Shown here: piece by piece, positions 43,152 to 63,075 of the stretch
How positions within the stretch are numbered: position 1 is the first letter of the stretch
Layout of the letters: each line of letters opens with the position of its first letter
Assembly (NCBI RefSeq): GCF_004346685.1
Contig: NZ_SMCO01000003.1
Coordinates: 1 to 64,000, forward strand
Source of the DNA: Sulfurirhabdus autotrophica
GTDB taxonomy: Bacteria; Pseudomonadota; Gammaproteobacteria; Burkholderiales; SMCO01
Direction of reading: 5' to 3'
Length of the DNA stretch: 64,000 nucleotides
Notes under the pieces: generated by a model
The model's database searches: none
The model's input: only the letters and a program-made list of their open reading frames with translations
Told to the model about the DNA's origin: nothing
Made by a program: the position numbers and the translations under genes

Positions 43152-44333
43152 ATGTCGCATTTAATGAACACCTATGCCAGGCTACCAGTCGCATTCGTTC
43201 GCGGGGAAGGCGTGTGGCTTTGGGACGAAAACGGCAAACGCTATCTTGACGCTGTAGCCGGTGTAGCCGTAAATGGCCTCGGCCATGCGCATCCCAAGTT
43301 AACACATGCCATTTGCGAACAGGCAAAAACACTGATTCACACATCCAACCTTTATGGGGTGAAGAAACAGGAAGAATTGGCAGACAAACTTGCCAGCATT
43401 TCCGGGATGGATGAAGTGTTTTTTTGCAATTCCGGTGCCGAGGCTAATGAAGCAGCCATCAAAATTGCCAGATTGTATGGTCATGGCAAGGGAATTGAAA
43501 TTCCTACTATTATCGTCATGGAAAAGAGCTTCCACGGCCGGACAATGGCTACACTGACCGCAACCGGCAGCCGCAAAGTTCAAGCTGGCTTTGAGCCATT
43601 GCTTTCGGGTTTTGTACGCGTCCCCTATGATGATATAGAAGCGATTACTCAGGTTGCAGCGCATAATAAAAATATTGTCGCTATATTGGTAGAGCCAGTT
43701 CAGGGCGAAGGGGGCGTTCACATCCCTACCCCGCTAACAGACTATTTCACCGCATTACGACGCGTCTGTGATGAAAATGGCTGGTTGTTGATGCTCGATG
43801 AAGTGCAAACAGGGATTGCCCGTACCGGCACCTGGTTTGCCCATCAACACACGGCAATCAAACCCGACGTGATGTCACTGGCGAAAGGATTGGGTTCTGG
43901 CATGCCGATTGGCGCTTGCCTGACTGCCGGCAAAGCGAAGGACACCTTCAAACCGGGGAATCACGGTTCCACTTTCGGAGGCAATCCGCTTGCCTGTGCA
44001 GCAGCTTTGGCTACGTTGGCCGCTATCGAAGAACAAAATTTACGTGAACACTCAGTCGAGCTCGGTCAATACATACAGGATGGCTTCAATAAATCACTTG
44101 CCGGCATCGCCGGGGTGACACAAGTTCGCGGCCTGGGCCTTATGATCGGTATTGAACTGGATCGTCCATGTGGTGAACTGGTCAAGTTGGCGTTGGCAAA
44201 GGGTTTATTGATCAATGTCACCGCCGATAAAGTGGTCAGACTTCTGCCGCCAATGATCATGAGCCAGGAAGAAGCAGCGCAGTTAATCGATATTCTCAGC
44301 GCACTGATCAAGGAATTTTTGAGTCACCATTAA
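43152..44333 (+). CDS. argD: Acetylornithine aminotransferase
   Basis: ArgD transfers an amino group from glutamate to N-acetylglutamate semialdehyde in arginine biosynthesis, and often also serves lysine synthesis as succinyldiaminopimelate transaminase. The 393-residue class III PLP aminotransferase has CNSGAEANEAAIKIAR near residue 95, the Asp block LMLDEVQTGIARTG near residue 213, and the PLP Lys in SLAKGLGSGMPIGA near residue 246. It leads the cluster argD-argF-(DUF2283)-argG. An AGGTAA before the ATG is a poor ribosome binding site. Confidence 0.95.
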   Translation: MSHLMNTYARLPVAFVRGEGVWLWDENGKRYLDAVAGVAVNGLGHAHPKLTHAICEQAKTLIHTSNLYGVKKQEELADKLASISGMDEVFFCNSGAEANEAAIKIARLYGHGKGIEIPTIIVMEKSFHGRTMATLTATGSRKVQAGFEPLLSGFVRVPYDDIEAITQVAAHNKNIVAILVEPVQGEGGVHIPTPLTDYFTALRRVCDENGWLLMLDEVQTGIARTGTWFAHQHTAIKPDVMSLAKGLGSGMPIGACLTAGKAKDTFKPGNHGSTFGGNPLACAAALATLAAIEEQNLREHSVELGQYIQDGFNKSLAGIAGVTQVRGLGLMIGIELDRPCGELVKLALAKGLLINVTADKVVRLLPPMIMSQEEAAQLIDILSALIKEFLSHH

Positions 44334-44451
44334 CAAATCCGGCACCATCTCTGCTAAACGTCAAGGCTATTAAGCAACAAATAGACGCTTCAAAGGGATA
44401 GTGCCACTTTTTCAAGGCTGGTATTTTTCACAAAATGCCATTCGAGGTTTT

Positions 44452-45375
44452 ATGCAAGTAAAGCATTTTCTGCAACTTAAAGATTTAGAGCAATCAGAGC
44501 TGGACTATCTTTTCAAGCGCGCACGCACAATGAAACAGCGTTTGGGCAAGGGTGAGTTATACCAGCCCCTGCGTGCTAAAACACTGGCCATGCTTTTTGA
44601 AAAAAATTCGACTCGCACCCGCGTTTCTTTTGAAGTCGGCATGAATCAACTTGGTGGCTCTGCCATGTTTCTTAGTCCCCGTGATACCCAATTGGGGCGT
44701 GGAGAACCCATTGAAGATGTGGCAGAAGTCATCTCCCGAATGGTGGATATTGTCATGATACGCACGTTCGAACAAGACATCGTCGAACGCTTTGCTGCAC
44801 ATTCCAAAGTCCCCGTCATCAATGGACTGACTGACGAATACCACCCTTGCCAGATTTTGGCCGATATTTTTACTTATATTGAGAAGCGTGGTTCTATTAA
44901 GGGCAAAACCGTCGCATGGATCGGCGACAGTAACAATGTATGCAACACATGGTTGCAAGCTGCCAAAATACTTGATTTCAATATGCACATTGCCACGCCG
45001 CCAGAGTATGAAGTAGAACCAGAGCGCGGCGAAAGTTTTGAAAGCATGCACATGGAGTGCTTTTCAGACCCGCATGATGCAGCTCGTGATGCAGATCTTG
45101 TCACGACGGATGTATGGACAAGCATGGGCTACGAAGACGAAACAGAAGATCGAAAACAGGATTTTCAGGATTTTCGCGTTGATGAGGAAATGATGGCACT
45201 GGCCAAACCCGATGCGCTTTTCATGCATTGCTTGCCCGCGCACCGTGGAGAAGAAGTTTCTGCCGGCGTGATTGATGGTCCGCAAAGCGTTGTATGGGAT
45301 GAAGCAGAAAACAGGTTGCATACACAAAAAGCACTGGTGGAATATCTCTTGCTCGGAAAAATCAAGGAGCAGTAA
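44452..45375 (+). CDS. argF: Ornithine carbamoyltransferase
   Basis: ArgF makes citrulline from ornithine and carbamoyl phosphate. From the ATG at 44452 (GAGG 5 bases upstream) it is 307 residues, the normal length; an upstream in-frame GTG at 44401 would add 17 residues unlike the family. The carbamoyl-phosphate motif STRTR is near residue 53, HPCQ near residue 130, the ornithine-binding DSNNV block near residue 160 and HCLPAHRGEE near residue 259. It lies 118 bases after argD. Confidence 0.97.
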   Translation: MQVKHFLQLKDLEQSELDYLFKRARTMKQRLGKGELYQPLRAKTLAMLFEKNSTRTRVSFEVGMNQLGGSAMFLSPRDTQLGRGEPIEDVAEVISRMVDIVMIRTFEQDIVERFAAHSKVPVINGLTDEYHPCQILADIFTYIEKRGSIKGKTVAWIGDSNNVCNTWLQAAKILDFNMHIATPPEYEVEPERGESFESMHMECFSDPHDAARDADLVTTDVWTSMGYEDETEDRKQDFQDFRVDEEMMALAKPDALFMHCLPAHRGEEVSAGVIDGPQSVVWDEAENRLHTQKALVEYLLLGKIKEQ

Positions 45376-45714: not shown

Positions 45715-46938
45715 ATGAGTGAAATCAAAAAAGTCGTACTCGCCTACTCTGGCGGACTGGATACATCAGTCATTTTAAAATGGCTACAGGATGTCTACCA
45801 ATGCGAAATCGTCACTTTCACCGCTGACATTGGTCAGGGTGAAGAACTGGAACCTGCGCGCGAAAAAGCAAAAAAATTCGGCGTCAAAGAAATATATATC
45901 GATGACTTGCGTGAAGAGTTTGTGCGCGACTTTGTTTTTCCTATGTTCCGTGCCAATACCATCTACGAAGGTGAATACCTGCTAGGCACCAGCATTGCAC
46001 GCCCGCTTATTGCCAAGCGCTTGATTGAAATTGCCCGTGATACCAAAGCTGATGCTATATCTCACGGCGCAACCGGTAAGGGAAATGATCAGGTGCGATT
46101 TGAACTGGGTGCATATGCCCTGAATCCGGATATTAAAGTCATCGCGCCATGGCGCGAATGGGATCTGCTTTCCCGTGAAAAGCTGCTGGCCTATGCTGAG
46201 CAGCATGGCATTCCCGTAGAGATGAAACACAAAGCCGGCGGCAGCCCCTATTCCATGGATGCCAATCTATTGCACATCAGCTACGAAGGCCGCCATCTTG
46301 AAGATCCCGCTGCTGAGCCGGAAGACGATATGTGGCGTTGGACTGTTTCACCTGAAAAAGCACCAGACCAGGCGGAATATCTGGATGTTGAATACAAGTA
46401 TGGCGACCCGGTAGCACTCAATGGCAAGCAACTTTCTGCAGCAGACTTGCTGGCAGAACTGAATCGCATTGGTGGAAAACACGGTATTGGCCGACTGGAT
46501 TTAGTAGAAAACCGCTATGTAGGCATGAAAGCACGCGGCTGCTATGAAACACCGGGCGGCACCATTATGTTGAAAGCACATCGTGCTATCGAATCCATTA
46601 CGCTCGATCGGGAAGTTGCGCATCTGAAAGACGAATTGATGCCGCGTTACGCTTCGCTCATTTACAACGGCTACTGGTGGAGCCCCGAGCGCGAAATGCT
46701 GCAAACCATGATCAACCATTCTCAAGTAAACGTAAATGGCTGGGTCAGGGTCAAACTTTACAAGGGAAATGTCACTGTCGTTGGTCGCGATTCTAAAACC
46801 AATTCTTTATTTGACCCTGGTATTGCCACATTTGAAGATGATCAAGGTGCCTACAACCAGGCAGATGCAGCGGGCTTCATCAAATTGAATGCATTACGTT
46901 TACGTATTGCCGCTAAATTCAAAAACAAAGCCAAATAA
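45715..46938 (+). CDS. argG: Argininosuccinate synthase
   Basis: ArgG joins citrulline and aspartate using ATP, the penultimate step to arginine. The 407-residue protein has the N-type PP-loop motif [12 protein letters not shown] near residue 10, the signature [15 protein letters not shown] near residue 115 and the C-terminal synthase signature region around [16 protein letters not shown] near residue 180. It is the short (type I) form of the enzyme. argH is not in this window. It ends 16 bases before ppnP. Confidence 0.98.
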
Positions 46939-46954: not shown

Positions 46955-47266
46955 ATGTCTCAATTTGATAATGTGAATGTTGTAAAAAAAGCCAATGTCT
47001 ACTTTGACGGAAAATGTGTTTCTCATACAGTCAATTTCCCTGACGGCACAAAAAAAACCATCGGTGTTATTTTCCCAAGCAAATTAGTGTTTAACACTGG
47101 CGCGCCTGAAATCATGGAAATAAACAGCGGTGAATGCAAGGTCAAACTGGCCGGCGAAAACGAGTGGAAAACCTACAAAACAGGTGAGAAATTTACCGTT
47201 CCTGGTAATTCTTCATTCGACATTGAAACCGTTGAAATGCTGGATTACGTTTGCCACTTCTGCTGA
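46955..47266 (+). CDS. ppnP: Pyrimidine/purine nucleoside phosphorylase PpnP
   Basis: The 103-residue protein is a small cupin of the YaiE/DUF1255 family, shown in E. coli to be a broad nucleoside phosphorylase. Family blocks are [18 protein letters not shown] near residue 24, [10 protein letters not shown] near residue 50, and the tail [12 protein letters not shown] with YVCHFC at the C-terminus. AAGGAAA precedes the ATG. It is 16 bases after argG and 7 bases before the proteasome-homologue gene, so these genes probably share one transcript. Confidence 0.93.
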
Positions 47267-47273
47267 TATCGCA

Positions 47274-47852
47274 ATGACGACCATTGTTGTAGTCAAAAAA
47301 GACGGATATGCGGCGATTGCGGCAGACACGCTAACCAAGTGGGGTTCCGGCAAAGAATCCGCAGAGTATATTGTTAATCACGAGAAAACCATCCTGGTTG
47401 GCAACAGCCAGATAGCCATTACAGGTTCAGCGACCTTTAAACTAATTCTTGCTGATTATTTTGCGACGTCAGAAGAAGAAATCAAGCTCGACACCGTTCC
47501 CAATATTTTCAAGACCTGGAACAAACTGCACGCTGAACTCAAAGAACATTATTTTCTCCAGACTGAGGAAGATAAAGACGATGAACTGGAGTCTACCCGC
47601 ATGGATGTGCTGATTGCCAACCCATTCGGTATTTTCGGTGTTGCTGCACACCGGACAGTCCAGGAATTTTCAAAGTATTATGCTTATGGCAGCGGTAGTG
47701 ATTACGCACTTGGCGCACTCTACTCCACCTATGATCAAATGGGAAAATCTGCCGAAGAAATAGCACGTCATGCAATCGAGGCTGCGGCTGAATTCGATGA
47801 TCGTAGTGGATTGCCTATTATTTCCTATAGTATCAAGCTGGTTAACAGCTAA
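47274..47852 (+). CDS. Proteasome-type Ntn-hydrolase, betaproteobacterial proteasome homologue (BPH)
   Basis: The 192-residue protein begins [18 protein letters not shown]. After removal of Met, Thr1 would be the nucleophile and Asp17 falls at the same position as in HslV and proteasome beta subunits; Lys37 (in HEKTI) is the best candidate for the catalytic Lys, four residues later than Lys33 of HslV. The N-terminal strand TTIV-V-GDG-like pattern and the [16 protein letters not shown] helix fit the family. It matches the BPH group known from betaproteobacteria rather than HslV or Anbu. No hslU or other unfoldase is near. The track frame opens earlier at 47130, but that overlaps ppnP. No strong ribosome site is seen; coupling to ppnP is likely. 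Confidence 0.82.
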
Positions 47853-47872: not shown

Positions 47873-48358
47873 ATGCCCTCTTTTGACATTGTTTCAGAAG
47901 TCGAAAAACAGGAAGTTAAAAACGCTGTAGAGCAGACCAATAAAGAGGTCAGCACCCGCTTTGACTTTAAAGGCTCAGATGCACGTGTAGAACAGGCCGA
48001 ATATGTACTGACAGTTTTCGCGGATGATGATTTCAAGATCACACAGGTGCTGGATGTGCTGAACAATAAATTGATCAAGCGCGGTATAGATATAAAATGC
48101 ATCGAATTGGGCAAGATAGAAAAAATTAGCGGCAACAAGGTAAAGCAGTCTATAACCGTCAAAACGGGTGTTGAAACTGAACTGGCTAAAAAAATAGTCA
48201 GAATTATCAAAGACAGCAAACTCAAGGTTCAGGCCAGCATTCAAGGTGAAACCGTTCGTGTCACAGGGGCCAAGCGAGATCTTCTGCAGGATGCCATCCA
48301 GTTAGTAAAAAAATCCATCGGTGACTTTCCGCTTCAATTTGGTAATTTTCGGGAATAG
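47873..48358 (+). CDS. yajQ: YajQ family nucleotide-binding protein
   Basis: The 161-residue protein is a standard YajQ (DUF520) with the N-terminal [21 protein letters not shown] pattern (first 13 residues are diagnostic), [12 protein letters not shown] near residue 24, and [22 protein letters not shown] (in parts) near residue 122. Xanthomonas and related YajQ proteins bind cyclic-di-GMP and act with a transcription factor; others bind nucleotides or RNA. AAGAAGGA precedes the ATG. It is 20 bases after the BPH gene. Confidence 0.95.
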
Positions 48359-48579
48359 CTTTATTTTCATAGTCTTTAACCCCATACAGGGTGGGTAAAC
48401 TGACCGGCTATAGTAGCAACCATAAATGCTTTCATAAACCGCCCCACTTTCTTATTTGTTCCCCCTCCCGAATAAAAGTCATTCTGAAAATTGCGCAATG
48501 TATTGCGCTTTTACTTTACCAAACAGAAATCAGCATAAAAATAACTGTCAACAAACCCAAACCCTATCCCTAGCCCTGT

Positions 48580-48631: not shown

Positions 48632-49396
48632 ATGCCTGACAACGAAAACACAACACAATCACTTGTGATCACGTCTGAAGATGATAGCCAATATTTGGTG
48701 ACATCGCAGGTTGAGATTATTTTCATCATGCGTGACCTGATTGAAAAAAAATCCATGTTCACCATTTATTTCAATTCCGGGAAAAGTTTCATTCTTTCGG
48801 TCTTGTTGACTGTATTACCCGACAGGGTTGAATTTGTGTTTGATTGTGGCGGCAATGATGCTATGAACGCGCAGCTATTGAAAAGTGAAAGGCTGATTTT
48901 TGTTGCCACCATAAACGGCGTCAAAGTCCAGTTTGCGACAGACAAAGCCAGAGCGATTCAATTCAAAGGCAGAGATGCTTTTATTGCGCATCTACCAAAA
49001 CAACTACTTCGGCTACAGCGTAGAGAATATTACCGACTGGAAGTACCAGGTTTTGCTCGCATAGGCTGCGACATTCCTGAGCTCTCAGGCGATTCTGCAA
49101 TTATTCTGGCAGTTCGCGATATCAGTCTTGGTGGCCTCGGCCTTTTCACCAATAAACAGCTTGATAGCAGCGCTATCATGGAAACATTCCACGACTGTCA
49201 TCTAGACCTGAAAAATGCCGGTACCATCACAGTAGATCTTGAAGTGAGAATTGCCATTGCACTATCCCAAAATAAAAGTGGTCTGGCTACGCGCGTGGGT
49301 TGCAGATTTGCAAAGATCACACCTGCTAATCAGGCAATACTACAACGATTTATAGTTATGGTAGAAAAAGAAGAACATGATTTGTTTTCTAAATAA
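48632..49396 (+). CDS. YcgR-type PilZ-domain protein (first of tandem pair)
   Basis: The 254-residue protein has an N-terminal YcgR (PilZN) domain, about residues 20-120, and a C-terminal PilZ domain with the cyclic-di-GMP motifs LQRREYYRLEVP near residue 128 (RxxxR type) and DISLGGLGL near residue 164 (DxSxxG). YcgR slows flagellar motors in enterobacteria; no flagellar gene is in this window, so the target is open and pili are possible. It is about half identical by eye to the next gene and each has the same upstream element, indicating a tandem duplication. Confidence 0.9.
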   Translation: MPDNENTTQSLVITSEDDSQYLVTSQVEIIFIMRDLIEKKSMFTIYFNSGKSFILSVLLTVLPDRVEFVFDCGGNDAMNAQLLKSERLIFVATINGVKVQFATDKARAIQFKGRDAFIAHLPKQLLRLQRREYYRLEVPGFARIGCDIPELSGDSAIILAVRDISLGGLGLFTNKQLDSSAIMETFHDCHLDLKNAGTITVDLEVRIAIALSQNKSGLATRVGCRFAKITPANQAILQRFIVMVEKEEHDLFSK

Positions 49397-49620: not shown

Positions 49621-50388
49621 ATGCCCATTAAAGATAATACAACACAGCCGCTCCAAGCTTCGGGGGATGATAGCCAGTATCTTGTTCATACTCAAAATGA
49701 AATCGCTTTCATTATGCGTGAATCCATCGAAAAAAAAGCCATGTTCACTGCCTATTTCAACCGAGGGTCAGAATTTATTCTGACCTCTCTGCTAACCGTA
49801 CTTCCTGGGCGGGGTGCTTTTATATTTGATTGCGGCAGCAAAGACAATGCGAATAAAAAATTACTCGAAAGTGACAGAGTCATATTTGTCACCACCTTGA
49901 ACGGTATCAAAATTCAGTTTGTGGCAACAGATGTCCGTGAAGTTCAATACAAGGGTAGTGATGCATTAATCGCAAAATTGCCAAGGCAATTGCTCCGTCT
50001 GCAACGTCGCGAATTTTTTCGATTGGAAATACCTGGATTTGCTAAAATACATTGCGAAATTCCTGACTCATTAAACAACACAACCACCTCGTTGCACATC
50101 CATGACATCAGCCTTGGCGGTCTTTCTCTGAACGCCACCAAACGCTTTGAAAAGAGTGTCGTACTGGAGAAATTCCGCCACTGCCAAATTACGCTGAAAG
50201 AGTTTGGTGTCATTACCGTTGATATTGAAGTACGTTACACGATAGTACTGACACAGCCCCGGGGCGAGCCCGTTACACGCATCGGATGCCGCTTCATCAG
50301 CATCACTCCTCACGATCAGGTGTTGATTCAAAGGTACATGGCAGCAGTAGAGACTGAAGAGCGGGGATTAATGCCTGAAAAACCTTGA
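49621..50388 (+). CDS. YcgR-type PilZ-domain protein (second of tandem pair)
   Basis: The 255-residue paralogue of the preceding gene has the same layout: a YcgR N-domain and a PilZ domain with LQRREFFRLEIP near residue 127 and DISLGGLSLN near residue 162. Both arginines and the D-x-S-x-x-G are intact, so both proteins should bind cyclic-di-GMP. The two copies diverge most in the C-terminal third. It faces a convergent small gene at 50442-50723. Confidence 0.9.
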   Translation: MPIKDNTTQPLQASGDDSQYLVHTQNEIAFIMRESIEKKAMFTAYFNRGSEFILTSLLTVLPGRGAFIFDCGSKDNANKKLLESDRVIFVTTLNGIKIQFVATDVREVQYKGSDALIAKLPRQLLRLQRREFFRLEIPGFAKIHCEIPDSLNNTTTSLHIHDISLGGLSLNATKRFEKSVVLEKFRHCQITLKEFGVITVDIEVRYTIVLTQPRGEPVTRIGCRFISITPHDQVLIQRYMAAVETEERGLMPEKP

Positions 50389-61593: not shown

Positions 61594-63075
61594 TTAGCGC
61601 CCTTTCCCTCCCATAATAGCACCAAGTACTCCGCGTAAAATTTGTTTGCCCAACTGGCTCCCAATAGCACGGGCTGCACTCTTGGCCAGGGCTTCAACCA
61701 CGCCTTCCCTGCTACGTCCTGATTTCGCGCTGCTCCCACCAAACATGCCGCCCAACATTCCCCCGGTCTCTGCTGGTTCTTCTTGAGCCTTCACAACTTG
61801 CTCCGCTCGCGCTTTAAGAACTTCATAAGCAGATTCCCGATCCACTTCTGCTTCATAATGCCCATAAAGTACTGAAGCTCTAATCAGTTGCTGACAGGTA
61901 GCTTCGTCAACCGGACCAATCTGGCTTTGTGGCGGTACAATCAAGGCTCGTTCGACAACTGTTGGCCTGCCCTTTTCATCCAGGGTAGAAACCAAAGCTT
62001 CCCCCACGCCCAACTCTGTAATGGCACTTGCCACATCCAGATCCGGATTGGCCCGCATCGTTTGCGCAGCGGCTTTAACGGATTTTTGATCACGCGGCGT
62101 AAATGCACGCAATGCATGCTGAACTCGATTACCCAGTTGGCCAAGTATATTATCTGGAATGTCATCCGGATTTTGGGTGACAAAATACACCCCGACCCCT
62201 TTAGAACGGATCAGCCTTACAACCTGTTCAATTTTATCCAGTAAAGCTGATGGCGTATCCTTGAACAAAAGGTGGGCTTCATCAAAAAAGAACACTAACC
62301 GTGGTTTTTCAGGATCACCAATTTCCGGCAGATTTTCGAAAAGTTCCGATAACAATCCCAACAGGAAAGTCGAATAGACGCTTGGGGACTGCATCAATTT
62401 GTCCGCTGACAAAATATTGATCATTCCGCGGCCCTGGTTATCTGTTTGCATGATATCGCTAATATTAAGCGCCGGCTCACCAAACAGCTTATCTCCACCT
62501 CCCTGCTCAATACTTAACAACCCGCGCTGAATAGCGCCAATACTGGCTGCAGAAACATTTCCATAGTCTGTAGTAAATGTTTTCGCGTTATCCCCCACAT
62601 ACTGCAACATCGCACGTAAGTCTTTCAGATCAAGCAACAACATCCCATTATCATCAGCAATTTTGAAGACCAGCATCATTACGCCAGATTGGGTATCGTT
62701 CAGGTTAAGCATGCGTGAGAGCAGAAGAGGGCCAAATTCCGACACTGTTGTTCTGGCAGGGTGCCCCCTTTCTCCAAAAACATCCCAGAATGTGACCGGA
62801 CAAGAGGAGAAAACGTAGTCAGTGAGGCTCATTTTTTCAACACGCTCTGTGATTTTTGGGTGGGTTTTACCTGGTTGACTAATACCAGAAAGATCACCTT
62901 TTACATCAGACATAAATACTGGCACGCCCATGCGACTGAAATTTTCAGCTAGCACTTGAAGCGTAACCGTTTTTCCCGTACCAGTTGCACCTGCAATCAA
63001 GCCGTGTCGATTCGCCATTTTTGGCAGCAGAAAAACTTCCTTGTTTCCTTTTGCAATCAGTATAGGATCCGACAT
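61594..63075 (-). CDS. HerA-like/DUF853 ATPase (YjgR-type)
   Basis: The 493-residue protein has Walker [13 protein letters not shown] near residue 29, Walker [12 protein letters not shown] near residue 265 and the sensor block [31 protein letters not shown] (in parts) near residue 300, all of the DUF853/YjgR branch of HerA-FtsK ATPases. The C-terminal tail is Gly/Ala-rich ([16 protein letters not shown]). The GGAG 5 bases before the ATG supports the start. The cellular role of YjgR is not known; relatives act on DNA or in translocation. Confidence 0.92.

Follow-up and report, generated by a model that had tools for sequence, protein, structure and literature searches.

The window analyzed here, a stretch of 64 kb of DNA from Sulfurirhabdus autotrophica, contains the genes argD-argF-argG-ppnP-BPH-yajQ, all in the same orientation; 16 bases separate argG from ppnP, 7 separate ppnP from BPH, and 20 separate BPH from yajQ. 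The product of 47274–47852 is a BPH (betaproteobacterial proteasome homologue), a proteasome-fold N-terminal-nucleophile hydrolase, which belongs to a known family and lies in a published setting. The features of this region are as follows:

43152–44333, plus strand: argD, acetylornithine aminotransferase (TIGR00707, E 4.2e-144)
44401–45375, plus strand: argF, ornithine carbamoyltransferase (NCBIfam, E 5.2e-141)
45715–46938, plus strand: argG, argininosuccinate synthase (NCBIfam, E 3.5e-192)
46955–47266, plus strand: ppnP, pyrimidine/purine nucleoside phosphorylase (Pfam PF06865, E 8.9e-38), 7 bases 5′ of BPH
47274–47852, plus strand: BPH of the arg-linked (Td) subfamily, 192 amino acids
47277–47279, plus strand: codon of the nucleophile Thr1 (numbered after Met removal), the same residue as Thr1 of Td-BPH (PMC5777263)
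47325–47327, plus strand: codon of Asp17 (GAC), invariant in BPHs
47385–47387, plus strand: codon of Lys37 (AAA), equivalent to proteasome Lys33
47565–47591, plus strand: acidic pore loop E97–E105 (EEDKDDELE), the lowest-confidence stretch of the structural model
47691–47693, plus strand: codon of Ser139
47873–48358, plus strand: gene for a YajQ-family nucleotide-binding protein (NCBIfam PRK05412, E 1.1e-65), 20 bases 3′ of BPH
48493–48508, plus strand: terminator-like hairpin after yajQ, a weak candidate for the transcript end, as such sites are no more frequent in the region than expected by chance

Just 3′ of yajQ, two adjacent genes (48632–49396 and 49621–50388) encode YcgR-type PilZN-PilZ proteins, which appear to be a tandem duplication.

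The BPH reading frame was confirmed to run from the ATG at 47274 to a stop codon ending at 47852. Upstream of this ATG, the frame is open back to a GTG at 47130. In 90 of 132 distinct relatives, a stop codon precedes the same Met with no other in-frame start between them, and we therefore place the start at the ATG, which leaves no propeptide. The alternative start at the GTG, which would add a propeptide, was rejected because an upstream start is impossible in most relatives. Once Met is removed, residue 1 of the protein is Thr.

An earlier note on this DNA had proposed that the protein is a BPH and neither HslV nor Anbu, a view which is supported by database searches and phylogeny. In a phmmer search of the PDB, its best solved relative was Td-BPH (5OVS; E 4e-81, 68% identity over 188 residues). 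Cm-BPH (5OVU) was matched with an E value of 3e-37 (40% identity), both matches lying far beyond chance; the best HslV match had an E value of 0.14, and no Anbu was among the matches. Identity to the HslV of the same genome is 24%. The generic Pfam Proteasome model (PF00227) is passed marginally (24.4 bits, cut-off 22.4). On the other hand, the NCBIfam HslV equivalogs (25.7 and 25.0 bits vs. cut-offs of 137 and 157.75) and the archaeal and bacterial 20S beta equivalogs (26.9 and 16.1 bits vs. 224 and 191.9) fail, all of them falling more than 100 bits short. Phylogenetic analysis placed the arg-linked BPHs, including Td-BPH and the window protein, in one clade (SH-aLRT 98; 87/91 in the other tree). 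The find itself is ordinary, a typical further member of a described family in its published arg location. The description of this family as little studied was overstated: crystal structures of two BPHs, covalent adducts with epoxomicin and MG132, SAXS, and EM have been reported (PMC5777263).

The AlphaFold model (pLDDT 84.9, pTM 0.85) has a proteasome beta-like fold, whose best PDB matches are 5OVS and 5OVT (TM 0.90), followed by Cm-BPH, HslV, and proteasome beta chains. The active-site residues named for Td-BPH, Thr1, Asp17, Lys37, Gly50, and Ser139 (PMC5777263), are found position for position in the window protein, and the Thr1/Asp17/Lys37 triad anticipated from the sequence is present in full. 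Lys37 and Gly50 are invariant in 101 aligned BPHs, as is Asp17 in the 100 that cover its position; Ser139 is Ser in 92 of the 101. Between H2 and S7 lies the acidic pore loop (net charge −5 over residues 92–108), which is present in nearly all aligned BPHs and replaces the basic pore cluster of HslV. Residues 97–107 are uncertain in the model, and the corresponding loop of Td-BPH is disordered.

The short gaps make it plausible that BPH is cotranscribed with the arg-ppnP-yajQ block. The argD-argF-argG-BPH setting has already been published for Thiobacillus denitrificans (PMC5777263); the ppnP and yajQ flanks are added here, as the text of that paper names the arg genes only. In nearly all cases, the gene of a Td-type BPH is preceded by argG, whether or not ppnP is also present, and followed by yajQ. 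From these neighbors, the earlier note had suggested coexpression and a link to arginine or nucleoside metabolism; BPH might, for example, serve the turnover of ArgG or PpnP. Both the tight spacing and the slot of BPH after ppnP/argG and before yajQ, which is fixed in one whole clade, would fit such a role. However, argG and ppnP are also adjacent in 19 of 20 BPH-less control genomes, a biased choice of relatives picked for holding ppnP, and in 16 of the 20 yajQ lies no more than 180 bases after ppnP and BPH is missing from between them. The BPH-less blocks, whose median ppnP-yajQ gap is 36 bases, contained no detectable BPH remnants, and in one further BPH-less relative the slot is filled by an unrelated protein of ~229 amino acids. 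Considering that the block is intact without BPH in most of these controls, BPH is an optional member of a block that also stands on its own. The block either predates BPH or is unrelated to it in origin, and the neighbors are poor functional evidence. In addition, the genes of Cm-type BPHs have other neighbors, such as pyruvate dehydrogenase genes or hsp33 (partly published before), which also argues against a metabolic role. Thus, cotranscription stands as plausible, whereas the functional link does not, and we consider a service to arginine or nucleoside metabolism very unlikely.

The divergence of BPH parallels that of argG, yajQ, and argF (Mantel-type r 0.59–0.75, with no permutation as high), which is consistent with vertical inheritance of BPH with the block once in place. 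A phage or mobile origin was rejected, as searches of phage and plasmid collections gave no match to BPH, its GC3 resembles that of its neighbors, and its divergence tracks the block. In one relative with a one-contig genome (G483:C1:1041124-1041683), BPH is split into three reading frames, whereas it is intact in another member of the same genus (G343); thus, BPH seems dispensable there.

As stated in the earlier note, the window contains no unfoldase gene, which holds for the 20 largest other open reading frames of the window. The only ring-type ATPase among them is a HerA-like protein (61594–63075, minus strand), which was rejected as a partner of BPH because it is 14 kb away, on the opposite strand, and of a different ATPase class. 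Elsewhere in the genome, hslV and hslU are adjacent on contig C10 and clpX is on C5, and the lack of hslU in the window therefore says little. An Anbu gene is also present (G000:C33:1-16000, L034), with duplicated circularly permuted ATP-grasp and Alpha-E neighbors, so that BPH, HslV, and Anbu represent three proteasome-family members in one genome.

To relate BPH to HslU, we analyzed their occurrence across the order in a set of 300 genomes; BPH is present in 116. With HslU matches no better than E ~1e-31 treated as background AAA+ proteins, 107 genomes have both, 9 have BPH only, 123 have HslU only, and 61 have neither, a positive association which is uncorrected for kinship and genome size. 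This association, together with the presence of hslUV and clpX in the same cell and the descent of BPH from HslV (PMC5777263), would agree with the possibility that BPH receives its substrates from a borrowed general unfoldase, either HslU or ClpX. However, HslU dependence based on co-occurrence was rejected, as the association is confounded and is contradicted by the BPH carriers among the HslU-less genomes (9 of 70), some of which are near-complete and also lack HslV. Examples with neither HslU nor HslV are G024, G204, and G250. A PF00227 re-search of seven HslU-less carriers, a loose first look that missed the BPH of the window's own genome, detected no HslV in any of them. BPH was the sole match in G024 and G250, G202 gave no match, and the other four each gave a single match, a longer frame similar to the Anbu hit of the window's genome, presumably an Anbu. 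The presence of BPH in relatives without HslUV fits a protease that lacks an ATPase of its own, and is better evidence of independence than absence from the window. Fuchs et al. (PMC5777263) found no ATPase partner of BPH by genome search or pull-down; HslU was not recovered from C. metallidurans extracts with or without nucleotide and crosslinker, and the HslU-contact residues are not conserved in BPH. Considering also the acidic loop in place of the basic pore cluster, borrowing of an unfoldase is unlikely.

In a published generalization, Ser1 is the first residue of BPHs outside Betaproteobacteria and of those only (PMC5777263). A set of 29 BPHs from other orders of the GTDB class comprises 28 with Ser1 and a single one with Thr1 (L179). 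The latter (L188, 4865–5431, minus strand, genome G505), an exception to the Ser1 rule, is on a long branch of the tree. Within the order, two arg-linked betaproteobacterial BPHs have Ser1 (L013, 1501–2064, minus strand, AGT; L030, 1501–2076, plus strand, AGC), contrary to the published generalization, and Ser1 is also present in three divergent copies (L080–L082). Two of these (L080, 5333–5896, G156; L081, 5435–5998, G117) are second BPHs in assemblies that also have an arg-linked Thr1 BPH, and their pore loop, with a net charge of +1 in the aligned region, is near neutral instead of acidic. As these genomes are mostly metagenome assemblies, the second copies may result from misbinning. A Ser1 BPH with 47% identity to the window protein was also observed on a Firmicute chromosome (Candidatus Formimonas warabiya; L078, 5001–5540). 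In a tree built without the first residues, the Cm-type BPHs with Thr1 are joined (100/95) to the gammaproteobacterial Ser1 BPHs and not to the arg-linked BPHs with Thr1. This tree requires a minimum of four Thr/Ser changes at residue 1. The comparison of relatives shows that the active-site Thr of BPH has been swapped for Ser more than once.

A probable explanation of all these observations is that the arg-linked BPH is a 14-mer Thr1 hydrolase without a dedicated ATPase, encoded by an optional gene of the block. The subunit would be made without a propeptide and activated by loss of the start Met, which exposes Thr1. Based on the 68% identity to Td-BPH, it would probably assemble into a homotetradecameric double ring with the Thr1 sites inside, where Thr1, predicted from close homologues to be activated by Lys37 and Asp17, would cut chains. 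We infer that chains enter unaided past the acidic pore loop, without ATP, and that substrates are probably unfolded or damaged proteins or peptides of a restricted kind. The gene would ride in argD-argF-argG-ppnP-yajQ, probably cotranscribed but not necessarily functionally linked.

Two points stand against this explanation: the positive BPH–HslU association described above, and the inertness of both purified BPHs, which cleaved neither peptides nor casein whether SDS was present or absent, and of acidic-loop mutants (PMC5777263). Given this inertness, BPH may depend on an activator or require a particular substrate. It might also be that BPH is a specific amide-bond enzyme (a ligase, amidase, or trimming peptidase) rather than a protease, similar to archaeal connectase, a proteasome fold able to ligate (PMC8665760). 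BPH was inert in every published protease assay although its Thr1 is exposed and reacts with inhibitors (PMC5777263), which, together with the alternation of Thr and Ser, would agree with this idea. However, no assay supports ligation, and the closed 14-mer with internal sites and proteasome-like binding of epoxomicin (PMC5777263) make it highly improbable. A related proposal, that the arg-linked BPH acts on amide bonds with narrow specificity and can use either Thr or Ser as its nucleophile, rests on the separate origin of Ser1 in the arg-linked clade (L013, L030) and the coexistence of Ser1 and Thr1 in G117 and G156. It is a long shot; if true, BPH would be specialized for processing or ligation and would not be a housekeeping protease.

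The comparison weakens guilt by association with the arg operon as a clue to BPH function and yields matched pairs of relatives that differ in whether this block contains BPH. HslUV-less carriers are identified as well; G024 and G250, in which BPH was the only proteasome relative that the search returned, are clean hosts for substrate finding.

Several known systems can be compared with the window protein. Anbu, which forms a split-ring assembly (PMC8665760), shares the proteasome fold but is a separate family, with ATP-grasp/Alpha-E neighbors in the genome's own copy instead of arg, ppnP, and yajQ. The HslV of this genome (G000:C10) shares the fold, the N-terminal TTI, Asp17, and the catalytic Lys; however, it is paired with hslU, whereas BPH has no adjacent hslU and has a long acidic loop. 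Cm-BPH (Cupriavidus metallidurans, 5OVU) shares the fold, triad, and acidic loop but belongs to another clade, and its gene lies between aceF and lpdA in a pyruvate dehydrogenase operon. Td-BPH (5OVS/5OVT) is the closest system, sharing active-site residues and numbering, the acidic loop, the argD-argF-argG setting, and the clade. The two proteins differ in 32% of residues. Td-BPH, whose oligomer and reactivity are known, forms, as does Cm-BPH, a homotetradecameric double ring (PMC5777263).
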